Positions 22,814-50,445 of a DNA stretch of 50,445 nt are shown here, in pieces. The notes beneath the pieces are model-generated. The model searched no databases, had not been told where the DNA came from, and was given only the letters and a program-made list of their open reading frames with translations. Origin of the DNA: a virus; the IMG/VR virus record IMGVR_UViG_3300036858_000014, positions 1 through 50,445 of that record; one strand, written 5' to 3'. Both the position numbers and the translations under genes were made by a program. Position 1 is the stretch's first letter; each line of letters begins with the position of its first letter.

Positions 22814-23212
22814 TTATTCATCCCCTCGTGCTTGGCGTTGACGTTCGATAAACGACTTAGCAAAGCTGGCAGCAAACGGTGATACATCCCCACCGTCAAA
22901 CTCGTTATCATCAGGTGTGGAACTTTGAACCCTAAAACCGCCCTTACGAACCTCGCGCAAAAGGTCTTTAGCGAAATCCTCAAATAGCCCTTGAATAGCG
23001 TTCAAGGATATGCCGTTTAACTCGCGTGTGTACATTTCGGGCGTCTTGCCATTGGTTCGTAAAATTGCATCCTGCGCAATCGCCTTGAACGTAAACCCTT
23101 TTTCAATGAGACGGTCAATAGCTGCCAGCGTATCAATTTCCACTTGACCGCTGGCAGGATTGAGGCGCATTGTAAAATAACGCGCCTCACTTGTCTTTTC
23201 ACGTTTTGCCAT
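22814..23212 (-). CDS. ParR-like partner of the actin-like ATPase
   Basis: This 132-residue protein begins immediately after the ParM-like gene. Its N-terminal part (ARYFTMRLNPASGQVEIDTL, then KGFTFKAIAQDAI) suits a strand-helix-helix DNA-binding fold. Its C terminus is charged and flexible (DDNEFDGGD), as in ParR proteins that cap the actin filament. The assignment relies mainly on gene order (parM then parR), since ParR sequences are poorly conserved. The start at 23212 has GGGG 7 bases upstream. Confidence 0.5.
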   Translation of the reverse strand: MAKREKTSEARYFTMRLNPASGQVEIDTLAAIDRLIEKGFTFKAIAQDAILRTNGKTPEMYTRELNGISLNAIQGLFEDFAKDLLREVRKGGFRVQSSTPDDNEFDGGDVSPFAASFAKSFIERQRQARGDE

Positions 23213-24243
23213 TACCACGCCCCTACCAAGCGCATAAGCGCTCCGACCTTTGCAAGCCCAAACACGTTAGCGAATTTCATCAAATCGCGGTTCTGTTCTG
23301 CGAAGATGAAATCAATACGCGGGTAGGATTGCACCAGCGCGTCATGAATCAGCGCCGCGCCGCCGCCCGTAAGCAGGATGTTGTCGAAGTTTGCCGCGCC
23401 GCCCGCTTCTTCGATGATCTGAATCACATCGTTGACCAGCGCTTGCATCACCGCGCCCGCTTCTTCTTGGCAGTCAATGGTGATGTTACCGAATTTGTAG
23501 CGCCCATTGAGAATAGCATCCTCAACACGGCGAATATCCAAATCGCCAGCATCACGAAATAACGTCCGGTTGTTTGCCCGCAACATGCTTTCAAAATCGT
23601 TGGTCATGTTGATAACGCCCGCGCGGGTAGACTTCAAACTGAGGGTGTCGATATTGCCGCCGGGGTCAACTGCTGCCACGTCCGTTGTATGTCCGCCGCA
23701 GTCAAGAACTAACGTTGTCACGTCGCGCAACGGATTCTTTTTGCGTTCCTCCCCACGTTCCGTCAAAGTGTAGTGTGAATAGCCCGCAATCGGTTCATCG
23801 GCTGTCATCACCTCGCGCACCTGATAGGTAAATTCGCCGTTGCGCGTTTCCACCTGCCAGATACCCTTTGCAGATAACACAATATCCCGCGCGTATTCCA
23901 CATCACCGGGGGCGTGTGAAGCAAACAAAGTGATGTTGCCCATATCCCGCGAAAACGTTTCACTGAGGGCGCAGGCAAGGGCAAACCCGTAATACTGCTG
24001 CGTGTATCGCGCCGCGCCGCGTGGTTTTTCTTTGAGCGTATAACGCCGCGCAGCATCACCAAATGCTAACGGTTGCCCATTCACGCGCAAGATACCGCTA
24101 GGCGGCTTGCCATTGCCACAAGCCCGCCGCCAGTCCGCTTCACTCAGCATCGCCAGCGCATGTCGCGCATCTGCATACTTGTGCTGTTTTGGAAAAAACC
24201 ACTTCCAACGGGCATTCCCAAAGTCTAAAACAAAATCAACCAT
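23212..24243 (-). CDS. parM: ParM/Alp-type actin-like segregation ATPase
   Basis: This 343-residue protein has the actin/Hsp70 ATP site: FVLDFGNARWKW at 4-15 (phosphate 1), LVLDCGGHTTDVA at 178-190 (phosphate 2) and LLTGGGAALI at 290-299 (adenosine). ParM filaments push plasmid copies apart through a ParR-centromere complex. The start at 24243 is set by AAAGGAC upstream; the frame extends 11 codons further without a ribosome site. It has its own promoter (24300-24328) and short repeats in the leader that could be the centromere. It implies stable, unintegrated inheritance. Confidence 0.88.
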   Translation of the reverse strand: MVDFVLDFGNARWKWFFPKQHKYADARHALAMLSEADWRRACGNGKPPSGILRVNGQPLAFGDAARRYTLKEKPRGAARYTQQYYGFALACALSETFSRDMGNITLFASHAPGDVEYARDIVLSAKGIWQVETRNGEFTYQVREVMTADEPIAGYSHYTLTERGEERKKNPLRDVTTLVLDCGGHTTDVAAVDPGGNIDTLSLKSTRAGVINMTNDFESMLRANNRTLFRDAGDLDIRRVEDAILNGRYKFGNITIDCQEEAGAVMQALVNDVIQIIEEAGGAANFDNILLTGGGAALIHDALVQSYPRIDFIFAEQNRDLMKFANVFGLAKVGALMRLVGAW

Positions 24244-29197: not shown

Positions 29198-29454
29198 TCT
29201 TGCACCGCCTTATGCTTCTCAATCGCATCAGCAACCATCTCGCCCATAATGTTCACCTGTCCAATAAACGTATCCCGCTGGTCATTACTCAACATGGTTA
29301 TGAATGCGAAGTCATGTAACCAGTGGTCAAAATGGCGCAGGACGAATAGCAGATTGTCAGCGCGTAACGCGTTCCCGAAGGCATCACCCCATTCTTGGAA
29401 CGTCGGGTAATCTTCCCCGCTAAACTGACCGAAGTATTGAAAGTCCGTTTGCAT
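29194..29454 (-). CDS. Hypothetical protein (86 aa)
   Basis: An acidic, aromatic-rich protein (FQYFGQFSGEDYPTFQEW; HFDHWLHDFAF) behind AAAGGAT, coupled to the initiator gene by a 4-base overlap. No motif recognised. It may assist initiation given its place. Confidence 0.55.
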   Translation of the reverse strand: MQTDFQYFGQFSGEDYPTFQEWGDAFGNALRADNLLFVLRHFDHWLHDFAFITMLSNDQRDTFIGQVNIMGEMVADAIEKHKAVQE

Positions 29455-29558
29455 ATCCTTTAATCCTCTTCACTAACCGTTAACTTGCTTTCCTGTCCAC
29501 ACTGCGTTACAATTCCGTTTGTACTTACTTTTCGTCTATTGTCCGTTCGTTCCCCCTT

Positions 29559-29586
29559 GCCCGCTGACCGCCGCCAGCGGGCTTTT
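29559..29586 (+). terminator. Plus-strand intrinsic terminator in the replication block
   Basis: GCCCGCTG and CAGCGGGC form a perfect 8-bp stem with an 8-base loop, followed on the plus strand by TTTTGTTTT. There is no plus-strand gene upstream of it, so it probably stops antisense transcription; on the minus strand it lacks a T-run. Confidence 0.7.
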
Positions 29587-29598
29587 GTTTTGCGTGGA

Positions 29599-33247: not shown

Positions 33248-33276
33248 AGTTTAGCACTACTATTGACTGCTGTCAA
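33248..33276 (-). promoter_or_regulatory. Leftward early promoter
   Basis: TTGACA (33276-33271), 17-base spacer, TAAACT (33253-33248) with an extended TGC -10, minus strand. Its -35 box forms one arm of a TTGAC-TGCT-GTCAA palindrome. Confidence 0.8.
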
Positions 33277-33291
33277 CAGATTTGTTATACT
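33263..33291 (+). promoter_or_regulatory. Rightward early promoter
   Basis: TTGACT (33263-33268), 17-base spacer, TATACT (33286-33291). Its -35 box is the other arm of the same palindrome, so one bound protein would block both promoters. Confidence 0.85.
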
Positions 33292-36110: not shown

Positions 36111-36177
36111 AGAGTCACCAAAAAGAAACCCCGCGCGGGGCAAACCGCCGGGGTGTGAGACACAAAGGAACGATCTA

Positions 36178-36765
36178 ATGTCTACAGATAGTATAACACT
36201 ACCCTCGTATTCAGACAACCTAGACCCTATGCAACGCCGCGAAATTGCCCGCGCTGAAATGGCGCAATTTGAGGGGCTAGGCAAATTCATGTATTTACTT
36301 CACAGTCCCTATGTTCGCAAGTTGCGCTTACCAGATAAGACAGTTGTGCATTCCGCAATTGACGTTATCGGCATCCTATCAGACTCAGAGAATGAGCCGC
36401 GCAAGCTGTGGAACGACACGAAAAAGCGCCTCCTAAAACAGGATGAAGATATGTCCGAAAAAATCGGACATATTGCTTTGCCGCTGTGGAACGACACGAA
36501 AAAGCGCCTCCGCCCTACGGATGTCATGACTTCAAGCGGACTAGTCATTCTGGTATTTGAACTCCACACGAAAACATCAAACAAGGTTAGGCATGGGATA
36601 GCAGGCGTGTTTGATCGTTACGCATCAGAACACCACGAAGCGATTCTGGCAGAACTTGAACGCACTACCGGATGGGCAGGGACGCGCATTCGATTGGAGA
36701 TGCAAGAGATTTACGAACCGGGGGATTATGACAATCCGGTACAGCCGCCGGGATGTCCTGAATAA
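36178..36765 (+). CDS. Bro-N-like antirepressor with internal repeat
   Basis: This 195-residue protein resembles Bro-N antirepressors: VHSAIDVIGILSDSENEPRKLWNDTKKRL near 55-85 corresponds to the family's D-V-hydrophobic...YWxxLKxRL region, and EKIGHIAL then RPTDVM to its later part. The unit LWNDTKKRL occurs twice, 26 residues apart, from a 29-bp exact DNA repeat; the second copy sits where relatives have a DGK-type turn. AAAGGAA lies before the ATG. A role against a repressor such as the double-XRE protein is plausible. Confidence 0.65.
   Translation: MSTDSITLPSYSDNLDPMQRREIARAEMAQFEGLGKFMYLLHSPYVRKLRLPDKTVVHSAIDVIGILSDSENEPRKLWNDTKKRLLKQDEDMSEKIGHIALPLWNDTKKRLRPTDVMTSSGLVILVFELHTKTSNKVRHGIAGVFDRYASEHHEAILAELERTTGWAGTRIRLEMQEIYEPGDYDNPVQPPGCPE
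36405..36433. repeat. 29-bp direct repeat, copy 1
   Basis: Identical to 36483-36511 (offset 78 bases, in frame). Between the copies lies a perfect 10-bp inverted repeat (ATATGTCCGA / TCGGACATAT, 36449-36473, 5-base A loop). Confidence 0.95.
36483..36511. repeat. 29-bp direct repeat, copy 2
   Basis: Second copy of the 36405-36433 repeat, encoding LWNDTKKRL again inside the antirepressor gene. Confidence 0.95.
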
Positions 36766-37142: not shown

Positions 37143-37156
37143 CTCGTTCTCTCTTT

Positions 37157-37196
37157 CTGTTTAACTATATAAACAGTATAGTTCATTTTTATGAAC
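37157..37196 (-). promoter_or_regulatory. Promoter with two operator-like palindromes
   Basis: CTGTTTA/TAAACAG (37157-37176) and GTTCAT/ATGAAC (37181-37196) flank and overlap a weak promoter (TTCATA, 17-base spacer, TTATAT) reading toward the gene at 36894-37142. A third palindrome CCCCTAAT/ATTAGGGG lies at 37203-37219. Confidence 0.5.
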
Positions 37197-37232
37197 ACTA
37201 CACCCCTAATAATTAGGGGTTAGCCCCTAAAT

Positions 37233-37262
37233 AAAAGAGACGTGTTTTTGTCACGCCTCTTT
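37233..37262 (-). terminator. Bidirectional terminator
   Basis: AGAGGCGTG and CACGTCTCT pair over 9 bp (one G-U) with a 7-base loop. Minus-strand TTTTATTT follows. It closes the short unit that starts near 37358. Confidence 0.8.
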
Positions 37263-37352
37263 CACATATACGATGTGCTATAAAATCCTACTGTCAGTAT
37301 GTCGGTTAGGAGACTAGCCGCGTTTTCCCCCGTTTATTCTGATCTATCCGAT
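37262..37352 (-). ncRNA. Candidate small RNA C
   Basis: An extended -10 promoter (TGTTATAGT, 37359-37367) points into about 90-120 bases without an open frame, ending at the terminator 37233-37262. The transcript would begin with a TCTAT/ATAGA hairpin and contain CGG/CCG pairing. No -35 box is clear, so this is the weakest of the small units. Confidence 0.35.
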
Positions 37353-37375
37353 AGACTAACTATAACACCGGAATC

Positions 37376-37399
37376 AAAAGAGCGCCACTAGGACGCCCT
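37376..37399 (-). terminator. Intrinsic terminator after the tRNA-like unit
   Basis: AGGGCG and CGCTCT (one G-U pair) with a 9-base loop, followed by TTTT on the minus strand. Confidence 0.75.
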
Positions 37400-37460
37400 T
37401 CTGACGGATATAGGAGACGCTTGGCGACTCACACGGGTGAACCCGTCATTTCATCCGATA

Positions 37461-37531
37461 AGCGCAGTGATGGAATCGAACCATCCTACCAAGCATACGA
37501 TCTTGCGCCTTCACCAGACGGCAAACTGCAC
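37461..37531 (-). tRNA. tRNA-like gene with abnormal anticodon arm
   Basis: The minus strand folds as a tRNA: acceptor GTGCAGT/ACTGCGC (one G-U), U8, D arm GCC/GGC with GG in the loop, T stem GATGG/CCATC with loop TTCGATT. The anticodon arm is one base short overall: CAAG/CTTG leaves an 8-base loop ATCGTATG, or five pairs with an A-G mismatch leave 6. If U33 is the T before CGT, the anticodon would be CGU (Thr). CCA is not encoded. It could be degenerate, a frameshift suppressor or a tRNA mimic. Confidence 0.5.
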
Positions 37532-37540
37532 TCCACTATC

Positions 37541-37584
37541 ATCATACCCCATAATGCATTACCGCGCCAATAAAGACGCGGTAA
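37541..37584 (-). promoter_or_regulatory. Promoter and operator of the tRNA-like unit
   Basis: TTGGCG (37570-37565), 18-base spacer, TATGAT (37546-37541), minus strand; the predicted start is at the tRNA-like 5' end. The -35 box lies inside a perfect TTACCGCG/CGCGGTAA inverted repeat (37559-37584). Confidence 0.5.
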
Positions 37585-37662
37585 CTCCCGAAAAGGGGCA
37601 GGTAAAGGTTCGCACTACCGCCGTTATGTTTCGCGTCCCACGCGCGGCTAGGGACGATGGCG

Positions 37663-38154
37663 CTAGGTGCGCTTGTAGCCTAGCACAGGCCAGTCTTTTT
37701 TCACGGCTTGGCTGTACACCGCCTCGTTACTCTTAATGCTGGTAACAAGGGTGAGGATTGAAATAATCGCGGTGTTAAGGAAGTCGAACCCGGCACTTAG
37801 TTCGCTGTCGAAACCATACCGCCGCGCAACCAATACCAGCGAAACAAGGATAGCCGCAACGGTGTATTTCAGGATTTCGCCGCTGACTTTAGAGAGGGGC
37901 GGGATACGCTTCAAAACACTGACAATGGATGTCGTGATAGGCGCTGATAGCATCGCCGCCGCAATCGCAATAAAGGCGTTTAGCAGTGTCACACCAACGG
38001 CGTCTTCTGGCGGTACTTCTGGGAACGGGTCGGCGGGCGTAGGAACGGGCGTCACTTCCGGCGCGGGTGTTTCGGTGCTTTCCTGTGCAAGTGCAAACGT
38101 GGGTAGCAGTAGGAAGCATAGCGAGAGGAGTAAGAGGGCGAGTCGTAGTTTCAT
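37663..38154 (-). CDS. Holin-like membrane protein with signal sequence (163 aa)
   Basis: The start MKLRLALLLL at 38154 is set by AAAGGAC 8 bases upstream. A signal peptide ends near ALAQ (residue 24). A Pro/Thr/Glu linker follows (about 25-52), then three hydrophobic segments (about 55-80, 98-115, 125-142) and a basic tail. A hydrophobic three-span protein beside a glycosidase is a good holin candidate; the exported linker is unusual for holins. Confidence 0.6.
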   Translation of the reverse strand: MKLRLALLLLSLCFLLLPTFALAQESTETPAPEVTPVPTPADPFPEVPPEDAVGVTLLNAFIAIAAAMLSAPITTSIVSVLKRIPPLSKVSGEILKYTVAAILVSLVLVARRYGFDSELSAGFDFLNTAIISILTLVTSIKSNEAVYSQAVKKDWPVLGYKRT

Positions 38155-38164
38155 AGTTAGTCCT

Positions 38165-39313
38165 TTACAATTCGGTTTCTGCGGTTTCATCAAGTCGATT
38201 CAAGATGTCGATTACATTTGCAACCCGGCGGTTAGCGGCGCTTAAGTCCGTCATGGCGTCGGCTATCATGGCGCGTATCTGCGCTTTTGTATCCGGCGTC
38301 GGCATCGGCTCATCGGGCGGTTCTGGCGGCGGCGGGGGATTAGGGTCACTCGCATACAGCATACGCGGGATAGCGGTATCTGCAATGTTGTAATTCACCC
38401 AGTCGGGATTTTGCCCATAACCGAAGATTAACGCCGCTTCCACGTCAAATAGTTGGTTCGCATCTACCCAAGCCATCTGTTTTACATAGGCTGTGTTTCT
38501 ATCCCATTGAGGCCACCAGTCCTTCCACTGCGGTTCAAGCGTTTTAAAACCGTTGACACTACCGCCGTTATGCTTCAAGCTGTTGAGCCATACGCCTATG
38601 TCACTTGTGTAATCAAAACTGGTTTCGGTGTAGATAACGCGCGGGCGCTTGATGCCGTTACGATCACACCATGCGTATAAAAACCGATGCCGTCCAATGT
38701 GAAAACAGGTTGCTTTCTCAATCTCAGCACGGGTAGGCCAGTTCTCAGGCGGGATTAGGTTTTTACCCTTCCCTTTCAATTCCGGTTTATTAGGGTCAAC
38801 ACCCGCGTTGTCAGGATACCCGCCGTAAGTTCCAGACGTAGCAGCGCCGCCCGCGTAAGCATGTAACCCCACGATAACGAACTGCGGAAAATCCGCCGCT
38901 AGTTTAAGCAAGTCTTTAGCGCGGTCAAAATCAGGGGTATCATATGTTCCGGTAGCAGGGTTTAGCACGATAACAGGCTGTTTATTCTCGATACCGTATC
39001 GCGCCAAGTCGTATTCCCATTGGATAATCTCAGCCCCTAAACCGCTTTCATTATGCCCGTGAACAATACAGCCGTTATCTGAAATTGGCTTGCTAATCCG
39101 TAAGAAGTCTTTAGCCCCTACACGCTTATGCAGTTCACCATCAGGCCATTGTCTAACAATTACCGTCATGTTTGGAAATGCACGTTTACAGGCGTAGGCA
39201 GTTGGGGCGCGGTCGCCATAGAATAGAATGGCGGGGGATTTCATAGCAGCAACGTGGTTAAACAGCACGTTTTCATCGTCGGGGTTTAGGACGTTTAAAC
39301 CTAGTTTGGTCAT
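38165..39313 (-). CDS. TIM-barrel glycosidase, candidate endolysin
   Basis: This 382-residue protein has a glycoside hydrolase (clan A-like) layout. VHGHNESGLG places Asn-Glu at 88-89 as acid/base, and RVIYTETSFDY places Glu230 as nucleophile; strands such as FVIVGLHAYAGG lie between. A Pro-rich linker (about 323-340) joins a C-terminal helical tail, perhaps a wall or tail anchor. With the holin-like gene 10 bases downstream, lysis is the likely role. No signal peptide is seen. Confidence 0.6.
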   Translation of the reverse strand: MTKLGLNVLNPDDENVLFNHVAAMKSPAILFYGDRAPTAYACKRAFPNMTVIVRQWPDGELHKRVGAKDFLRISKPISDNGCIVHGHNESGLGAEIIQWEYDLARYGIENKQPVIVLNPATGTYDTPDFDRAKDLLKLAADFPQFVIVGLHAYAGGAATSGTYGGYPDNAGVDPNKPELKGKGKNLIPPENWPTRAEIEKATCFHIGRHRFLYAWCDRNGIKRPRVIYTETSFDYTSDIGVWLNSLKHNGGSVNGFKTLEPQWKDWWPQWDRNTAYVKQMAWVDANQLFDVEAALIFGYGQNPDWVNYNIADTAIPRMLYASDPNPPPPPEPPDEPMPTPDTKAQIRAMIADAMTDLSAANRRVANVIDILNRLDETAETEL

Positions 39314-39341: not shown

Positions 39342-39350
39342 ATTATAGCA
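39342..39350 (-). promoter_or_regulatory. Extended -10 promoter of the lysis genes
   Basis: TGCTATAAT on the minus strand with GTGTGC just before, nearly identical to the antirepressor promoter at 36102-36110. No clear -35 box. Confidence 0.55.
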
Positions 39351-39370
39351 CACTCTAGCACCAGAAACAC

Positions 39371-39394
39371 AAAAGCGCCCGTTAAGGCGCCTTT
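39371..39394 (-). terminator. Terminator of small RNA A
   Basis: GCGCC/GGCGC, extended by AAAG/TTTT pairing, then TTTTGTG on the minus strand. Confidence 0.8.
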
Positions 39395-39484
39395 GTGTCA
39401 GTCTTGGCTCTGCAGCCCAGCTATCATCCATTGTGATAACCATCGTGAGGCCTACTACCGAACTTGTGATCGGGTTCAGTCTCA
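39371..39484 (-). ncRNA. Candidate small RNA A
   Basis: About 110 bases between a good promoter (39491-39520) and a good terminator, with no open frame. Local stems visible on the minus strand include CCGA/TCGG, TATCA/TGATA and GGCT/AGCC. Its compact unit resembles regulatory RNAs or decoys. Confidence 0.5.
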
Positions 39485-39490
39485 AACACC

Positions 39491-39520
39491 ATTATAAACA
39501 CAAAAGCGCGAGCTTTGCAA
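39491..39520 (-). promoter_or_regulatory. Promoter of small RNA A
   Basis: TTGCAA, 18-base spacer, perfect TATAAT, minus strand. It overlaps the terminator of small RNA B, so the two units are back to back. Confidence 0.65.
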
Positions 39521-39530
39521 CCCGCGCCTT
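39499..39530 (-). terminator. Terminator of small RNA B
   Basis: GCGCG/CGCGC extended by AAG/TTT with a 12-base loop, then TTTTGTGTTT on the minus strand. Confidence 0.75.
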
Positions 39531-39594
39531 GTGCTTTGCAGACCCATCAGGAAGGAGTTATAGGACGTTCCCACACATTAGACGCCCTATCGAC
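39503..39594 (-). ncRNA. Candidate small RNA B
   Basis: About 95 bases from the promoter at 39601-39629 to the terminator. Near its 5' end ATAGGGCGT pairs with ACGTCCTAT (9 bp, one G-U) around a 13-base loop. No open frame. Confidence 0.55.
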
Positions 39595-39600
39595 ATACAC

Positions 39601-39629
39601 AGTATAACGTGGGTTGCGGCGGGGTGCAA
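39601..39629 (-). promoter_or_regulatory. Promoter of small RNA B
   Basis: TTGCAC, 17-base spacer, TATACT, minus strand. It diverges from the plus-strand promoter at 39644. Confidence 0.7.
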
Positions 39630-39701: not shown

Positions 39702-39962
39702 ATGCATGTAAACGGTGTTGATCTTAAGGTTACAAGGTTGAATGCAAAATGCGGCTATGTCCACTATGAAACAGCGTTTGGCGTTGACGCAAAACCAATT
39801 CATAACAGCGTAGCACAGGCGCTCAAAGCAAAACATTGGGCAGTCACGATGATACGGGAAATTAAGCCATCGGAATTACACCCTCAAAAAACAATCTATT
39901 GGGTACTAGATTACGCGCCCGATTCTGACACATTGCAAAAGCAGATTGATGAATTGACATGA
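39702..39962 (+). CDS. Cassette gene 1, hypothetical (86 aa)
   Basis: AAGGAGA precedes the ATG. A small mixed protein (MHVNGVDLKVTRLNAKCGYV; later IREIKPSELHP) with no recognised family. It overlaps the next gene by 4 bases. Promoter and terminator around the group suggest a moron carried among late genes. Confidence 0.6.
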   Translation: MHVNGVDLKVTRLNAKCGYVHYETAFGVDAKPIHNSVAQALKAKHWAVTMIREIKPSELHPQKTIYWVLDYAPDSDTLQKQIDELT

Positions 39963-40248: not shown

Positions 40249-40464
40249 ATGAAGATCAATAAACATCCGATTATCGTAAAGATCATTAGCCAACGTTGTA
40301 CTGGCTATGAGTTTAAGCCAGACTACTCAGCATCCATCATTGAGAACGTTGGGGAGGATGCAAACGGGACGAAATACCGTTTTACAACTGAACACAGACG
40401 CCGCAACGACGATGAGATGGGTACTGCATTGATGATTGATCGACACGATTACGTGATGATCTAA
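40249..40464 (+). CDS. Cassette gene 3, hypothetical (71 aa)
   Basis: Start MKINKHPIIVKI at 40249, 7 bases after GGGGAG; an ATG at 40243 (MTMK) overlapping the previous stop is also possible. A beta-rich short protein. Its stop overlaps the stop of the converging gene at 40461. Confidence 0.55.
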   Translation: MKINKHPIIVKIISQRCTGYEFKPDYSASIIENVGEDANGTKYRFTTEHRRRNDDEMGTALMIDRHDYVMI

Positions 40465-50145: not shown

Positions 50146-50445
50146 CTAGCGGTTTGCTTTTGTATAACCACGTTCGATAGCCGCTTGCATTCGTTCATCT
50201 AGCGGCGGGTCTAACTCATCTAACAAGGTTTCTGAAAACTTGCGGGCTTCTGTACCGGGATGTTTCACAACTGTCTTTTGAACCCATGCCCCGCTTGCCG
50301 TTCCCGTCCCTACATTTGCCCGCGCAACGGGGGCAGTACGGGCGCTGTAACCTGTCTGGAATTTGAGCAGCGGTACGTTTTTAGCGGCGATGATATGCGG
50401 GCGCGTACCCTGATCGACATATGTCCAGATTTTTTTGTGTATCCC
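50146..50445 (-). CDS. HK97 gp10-like neck protein (C-terminal part of the gene at 1-331)
   Basis: Second piece of the gene split by the arbitrary circle opening. It reads from the shared overlap region to a TAG at 50148-50146, ending RMQAAIERGYTKANR. Joined to 331-1 it makes one 167-residue protein. Confidence 0.85.
   Translation of the reverse strand, partial: GIHKKIWTYVDQGTRPHIIAAKNVPLLKFQTGYSARTAPVARANVGTGTASGAWVQKTVVKHPGTEARKFSETLLDELDPPLDERMQAAIERGYTKANR
50319..50445. repeat. Terminal direct overlap, right copy
   Basis: Identical to 1-127. The length of 127 is a common assembler word size, supporting a closed circle or circularly permuted phage. Confidence 0.97.

Follow-up and report, generated by a model that had tools for sequence, protein, structure and literature searches.

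In the phage genome studied here, a 388-nt gap separates a 382-aa gene on the minus strand (38165–39313) from a plus-strand gene at 39702, and it houses two consecutive arrangements of promoter-like site, short intervening sequence and strong terminator, which we call units B and A. The locus raises the question of whether these are two small RNA genes in series, or whether their promoters and terminators have a different meaning. The window analysed is the whole IMG/VR record IMGVR_UViG_3300036858_000014 (50,445 bases), which carries an identical 127-bp direct repeat at its two ends (1–127 and 50319–50445); this terminal identity makes it probable that the record represents one complete, circular phage genome with a length of 50,318 bp. 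A simple gene caller assigns about 85% of it to coding sequence, with nearly all genes on the minus strand and the plus-strand genes in one block at 33.3–36.8 kb and a short one at 39.7–40.5 kb.

A terminase and a tail protein of the tape-measure type are recognisable in the genome, and the capsid, portal and primase-like proteins gave few or no matches in family and homology searches. No close relative was found among viral contigs queried with the terminase, capsid, primase-like, portal and 382-aa proteins, nor among phage and plasmid records, and a TerL scan of bacterial genomes returned four weak clostridial relatives whose distant terminases are too far removed for comparison. A minus-strand gene at 23212–24243 encodes a ParM/MreB-like actin, because of which the genome is possibly that of a phage-plasmid, with plasmid-type partition a possibility. 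At 33248–33291, two divergent promoter-like sites, the top two of the genome, overlap and adjoin a gene on the plus strand whose product has an HTH domain, and this region is likely a regulatory switch.

Anatomy of units A and B and their excess over chance

The preliminary description of this DNA placed two tandem small-RNA-type units without open frames at 39371–39629, and all the elements that it named are indeed present there on the minus strand. Read along that strand, the order within the gap is promoter B, ∼97 nt, terminator B, promoter A, ∼120 nt, terminator A and a further promoter-like site. Promoter B (TTGCAC-17-TATACT, 39601–39629, score 10.0) precedes a predicted RNA B of ∼97 nt (39498–39594), the 5′ end of which is deduced from the position of the −10 element. 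This RNA would contain a 9-bp stem with a 13-nt loop (39560–39590, arms 39590–39582 and 39568–39560) and the partly unpaired, CU-rich and Shine–Dalgarno-complementary stretch ACUCCUUCC (39550–39558), and would end at terminator B, a hairpin plus tail of −24.2 kcal/mol (39496–39536). Promoter A (TTGCAA-18-TATAAT, 39491–39520, score 12.2), which ranks 8th among the 249 promoter-like sites that the two strands together offer at scores above 7, places its −35 element inside the terminator B loop and its −10 element past the U tail of that terminator. The predicted RNA A of ∼120 nt (39363–39485) would end at terminator A (39366–39398, −23.5 kcal/mol), and a promoter-like site with an extended −10 element (39342–39370, score 9.8) lies directly before the 382-aa gene. 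Terminators B and A have the two lowest hairpin energies in the genome-wide list of hairpins with a U tail. Coding scores are negative for all ORFs of 20 codons or more that fall mostly inside the 388-nt gap, which bears out the claim that the units lack open frames; the same is true of the neighbouring gap that holds units C and D (described below), and a protein-coding reading of both gaps was rejected.

The 382-aa gene is a putative lysin by position only, and its product had no family match in profile and homology searches; an AF2 model of it was discarded at a pLDDT of 36. The next gene on the minus strand (37663–38154) encodes a 163-aa protein with four hydrophobic stretches, which is holin-like by these only and had no significant family match. 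From the position and the TM-rich neighbour, the two genes form a putative lysis pair.

To what extent does this arrangement exceed chance? A plain hexamer promoter scan found five sites where 4.8 were expected, which is no excess. When a promoter score of at least 9 and a terminator of −17 kcal/mol or below were required together, the genome yielded three minus-strand pairs and one plus-strand pair, against an average of 0.2 and no more than 1 for each strand when the genome was shuffled 20 times. A promoter lies 45–190 nt upstream of all three strong minus-strand terminators and of one of the two on the plus strand, and when the gap itself was shuffled 2000 times, both promoters A and B appeared at their observed scores and places in 0.2% of the shuffles. 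The RNA bodies without their terminators fold like shuffled sequence (z −0.85 for A and −0.27 for B), for which reason the ‘folded RNA’ named in the preliminary description carries no weight. The 9-bp stem of B is likewise unremarkable, with 37 of 499 sampled 61-nt minus-strand windows holding a stem of at least 9 bp. The excess over chance is therefore one of terminators and of promoter–terminator pairing, not of RNA-body folding. No relatives in which covariation or conservation of A and B could be compared were found in the viral contigs and phage records searched.

To calibrate the promoter–terminator scan, we applied it to phages whose short RNAs are known, with cut-offs of ≤ −12 for the terminator and ≥ 9 for the promoter. 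Lambda gave two flagged pairs and P22 four. Of the six, three are short RNAs already known: the annotated P22 oop and P22 late leader, and one lambda pair that, by its position, we take to be OOP. The annotated P22 sar and a23 were missed, as was lambda 6S at the position where we presume it to lie; in PAK_P3, both RNAs detected by RNA-seq were missed and one of 15 strong terminators was flagged. Given this mixed recovery across lambda, P22 and PAK_P3, a flag from the scan is a reasonable indication that a real short RNA is present, while the lack of a flag means little.

Candidate small RNA genes and competing readings

The likeliest reading, to which we assign a probability of about one half, is that A and B are two separate, independently transcribed small non-coding RNA genes of the phage. 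Its observed part consists of the sequence anatomy, the excess over chance and the absence of a coding signal, from which we infer the two transcripts and their action in trans by base-pairing. Host RNA polymerase would initiate at promoter B and produce an RNA of ∼97 nt that terminates at terminator B; a second start at promoter A, overlapping terminator B, would give an RNA of ∼120 nt that stops at terminator A, and transcription of A would end ahead of the putative lysis genes. Both RNAs would then act elsewhere through base-pairing, with ACUCCUUCC as the likeliest contact of RNA B, which may pair with Shine–Dalgarno regions and lower the translation of phage or host messages. Three points favour the RNA-gene reading: there are two units one after the other, the 382-aa gene has a separate promoter-like site before it, and the next gap (37143–37662) has the same layout with an RNA bearing a tRNA-like domain.

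Hexamers complementary to the Shine–Dalgarno sequence are rare in the genome, with 46 occurrences (31 on the plus strand and 15 on the minus strand) and 0.028 expected per 61 nt, and the body of B alone among units A–F bears one. The bases of this stretch are predicted to be partly unpaired (0.34–0.89), and against 72 phage start regions the mean pairing of body B beats 60 of 60 shuffles. As a post hoc observation on predicted pairing, this is suggestive of an anti-Shine–Dalgarno role for B. The best single duplexes are not clearly beyond shuffles, which did as well in 6 of 60 cases for B, 2 of 60 for A, 10 of 60 for D, 49 of 60 for C and 59 of 60 for F, and so no target is named for any unit.

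The same anatomy could be produced by terminated leaders, in which B and A stop early and an antiterminator permits late read-through into the 382-aa gene. Both units share a strand with the putative lysis genes and lie directly upstream of them, and in P22 the late promoter, a short leader and a terminator (P_late to t_late), all recovered by our scan, similarly precede the holin and endolysin. Lambda 6S is likewise a promoter, a short RNA and a strong terminator upstream of lysis genes, and a known antiterminator acts there as it does on the P22 late leader. These systems differ from A and B in being a single unit rather than two in series, and the leader reading is made unlikely by the presence of two serial units that each have their own promoter, by the additional promoter-like site that comes after terminator A, and by the recurrence of the same layout, there with a tRNA-like RNA, ahead of an unrelated gene of 82 aa. 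In addition, no antiterminator was recognised among the subset of proteins scanned, in a genome where most proteins are orphans.

It may instead be the terminators alone that matter, with T_B and T_A blocking tail-gene transcription and insulating the lysis genes, the promoters being chance matches and RNA genes being absent. No strong minus-strand terminator comes between the gene ending at 40461 and these two, and the generic promoter scan gave hits at the chance level; this account has some force but we still judge it improbable, since the shuffled gaps so seldom reproduce both promoters, and since a promoter stands upstream of four of the five strong terminators here as against one of 15 in PAK_P3. 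A and B could also belong to a phage RNA island in decay, as what is left of RNA genes, of the tRNA type or another, that have lost their function; this would fit with the neighbouring unit C, which is tRNA-like yet is called by neither ARAGORN nor RF00005. We give this account very little credence, as A and B themselves match no tRNA model under lax filters and have intact promoters and terminators.

Several more specific identities were tried and rejected. A matches the SraL model (Rfam RF01408) at 26.9 bits, below the gathering cut-off of 39, and the match vanishes without the terminator. Neither A nor B can be taken as a tRNA, with no match to the tRNA model even when filters are lax. Antisense pairing of B with unit D through an inverted repeat (I3) was set aside because the repeat lies mostly upstream of the predicted start of B. 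A common origin of units A–F was rejected as well, the best of the 15 pairs of bodies (C–F) being equalled by 15 of 300 shuffles.

If A and B are small RNA genes, they belong to a company that is larger than the preliminary description allowed when it called such RNAs rarely described: short phage RNAs are carried by lambda, P22 and PAK_P3 alike, and three reports treat them as an established kind (PMC4933390, PMC9964418, PMC12197685). The oop RNAs of lambda and P22 resemble A and B in being short, with their own promoter and a strong terminator at the end; lambda oop is a cis-antisense RNA (PMC12197685), whereas A and B overlap no opposite-strand gene among those called here. In PAK_P3, RNA-seq detected two intergenic RNAs of ∼100 nt in neighbouring gaps, in a report that also cites another pair of phage small RNAs (PMC4933390). 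These PAK_P3 RNAs, sRNA1 and sRNA2, are like the region of A and B in their length, in their adjacent intergenic locations and in that one of them is tRNA-like. They differ in having been detected by RNA-seq and in being sited among tRNA genes; there is no sequence match between them and A or B, and the PAK_P3 RNAs escape the promoter–terminator scan. Compared with the phage collection, A–D gave short partial matches only. The A/B feature is real but of a familiar kind. Mapped small RNAs are few among phages outside the model systems, and A and B would add two whose ends are sharply predicted and which lie next to putative lysis genes.

Putative tRNA-like RNAs in unit C, PAK_P3 and viral contigs

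The preliminary description further claimed two more such units at 37.23–37.58 kb. Both exist on the minus strand, but their promoters are weaker, being reached together in 4% of gap shuffles, and the first of them is more than a plain unit in that it has a tRNA-like domain. Promoter C (TTGGCG-18-TATGAT, 37541–37570, score 9.2) precedes a predicted RNA C (37365–37534) made up of the tRNA-like domain (37461–37533), 3′ hairpins and a terminator. Promoter D, with a weak −35 and an extended −10 element (37359–37388, score 7.7), overlaps terminator C and would drive RNA D (37230–37352, including its terminator) as a plain promoter–RNA–terminator unit.

The domain in unit C has a 9-bp acceptor-like stem at the predicted 5′ end, a D-arm whose loop reads UGGU, a canonical T-arm, and a 4-bp arm closing the 8-nt loop AUCGUAUG. 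ARAGORN made no calls on it, RF00005 gave no match, and the tRNA-Sec model scored 31.2 bits, below its gathering cut-off of 47, with an E-value of 0.026 per window. Short blastn matches were found in eight phage records, five of them within the T-arm of tRNA-Met. We regard the tRNA-like domain of unit C as degenerate.

A structural reading of PAK_P3 sRNA2 emerged from the control made for the analysis of A and B. This RNA was detected by RNA-seq, in a study that remarked on 11 nt of it matching tRNA T-loops (PMC4933390). Together with its 5′ flank (L007:26306–26425, corresponding to ∼86305–86424 of the PAK_P3 record), it folds into a tRNA-like shape that has a T-arm and an acceptor of 7 bp. 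It is conserved in PAK_P1-like phages, and a 181-base query over it gave matches in 162 Pseudomonas phage records. We aligned six sequences, namely PAK_P3 and five chosen from the matches listed, and checked the acceptor, anticodon-like and long helices, leaving out the T-arm helix. Two of the seven acceptor pairs change on both sides with pairing kept, and the seventh pair is broken in three of the six sequences. This covariation in six sequences argues that PAK_P3 sRNA2 is a tRNA-like molecule, one with a short anticodon-like arm.

The longest invariant blocks in the six sequences are GGATCGTAAGCC and GGTTCGATTCC, and unit C contains both in the same order, GGTTCGATTCC exactly and the core of GGATCGTAAGCC with one mismatch (8 of 9). 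Set against the features of sRNA2, unit C thus has the T-arm GGTTCGATTCC exactly, the short-arm loop AUCGUAAG at 8 of 9 positions and an acceptor-like stem of 9 bp; an overall sequence match between the two is absent. Because the T-loop is common to tRNAs, a kinship of unit C with sRNA2 is a lead, not proof.

A pattern scan of viral contigs for GATCGTAWG...GGTTCGANTCC returned 114 stretches, and ARAGORN was run on 24 of these loci in all. The pattern is not specific: 68 of the 114 have a 48-nt span, and the eight of these given to ARAGORN (L018, L019, L023, L025, L026, L029, L030 and L033) were all called tmRNA*. Another 15 have a 30-nt span and reduce to six distinct tRNA-like sequences (L024:4523–4593, L028:5295–5365, L047:3170–3240, L062:5489–5559, L095:9671–9741 and L112:8802–8872); on four of the 15, ARAGORN called tRNA-??? 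three times and tRNA-Thr (cgt) once. Where a normal anticodon arm would be, these six genes have GATCGTAAG, and the tRNA model gives one of the loci 31.7 bits. The loci were found by the motif, the presence of which in them proves nothing alone, and when unit C was aligned with the six, little was shared apart from what tRNAs have in general and the motif used for the search.

It is a rather doubtful proposition that unrelated phages share an undescribed kind of tRNA-like small RNA, in which only a short stem with AUCGUA(A/U)G is left of the anticodon arm and which would include unit C, PAK_P3 sRNA2 and its relatives, and the six IMG/VR genes. Such RNAs might act as decoys for host proteins that bind or cut tRNAs, and A and B would be RNAs encoded alongside them. 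The open-access literature searched yielded no paper on phage small RNAs of a tRNA-like type, and we consider the lead connecting unit C with PAK_P3 sRNA2 more interesting than the finding of A and B.

Two other candidate units lie farther away. Unit E, on the minus strand and absent from the preliminary description, would yield an RNA of ∼65 nt (36184–36120; 36120–36218 with its promoter) ending at a strong terminator, and its promoter ranks 5th of the 249. It is antisense to the leader and start of the gene at 36178–36765, an arrangement over a gene start that resembles P22 sar, located directly before ant. Unit F is a promoter–terminator pair on the plus strand (29437–29592), CU-rich and unstructured, in a gap between minus-strand genes.
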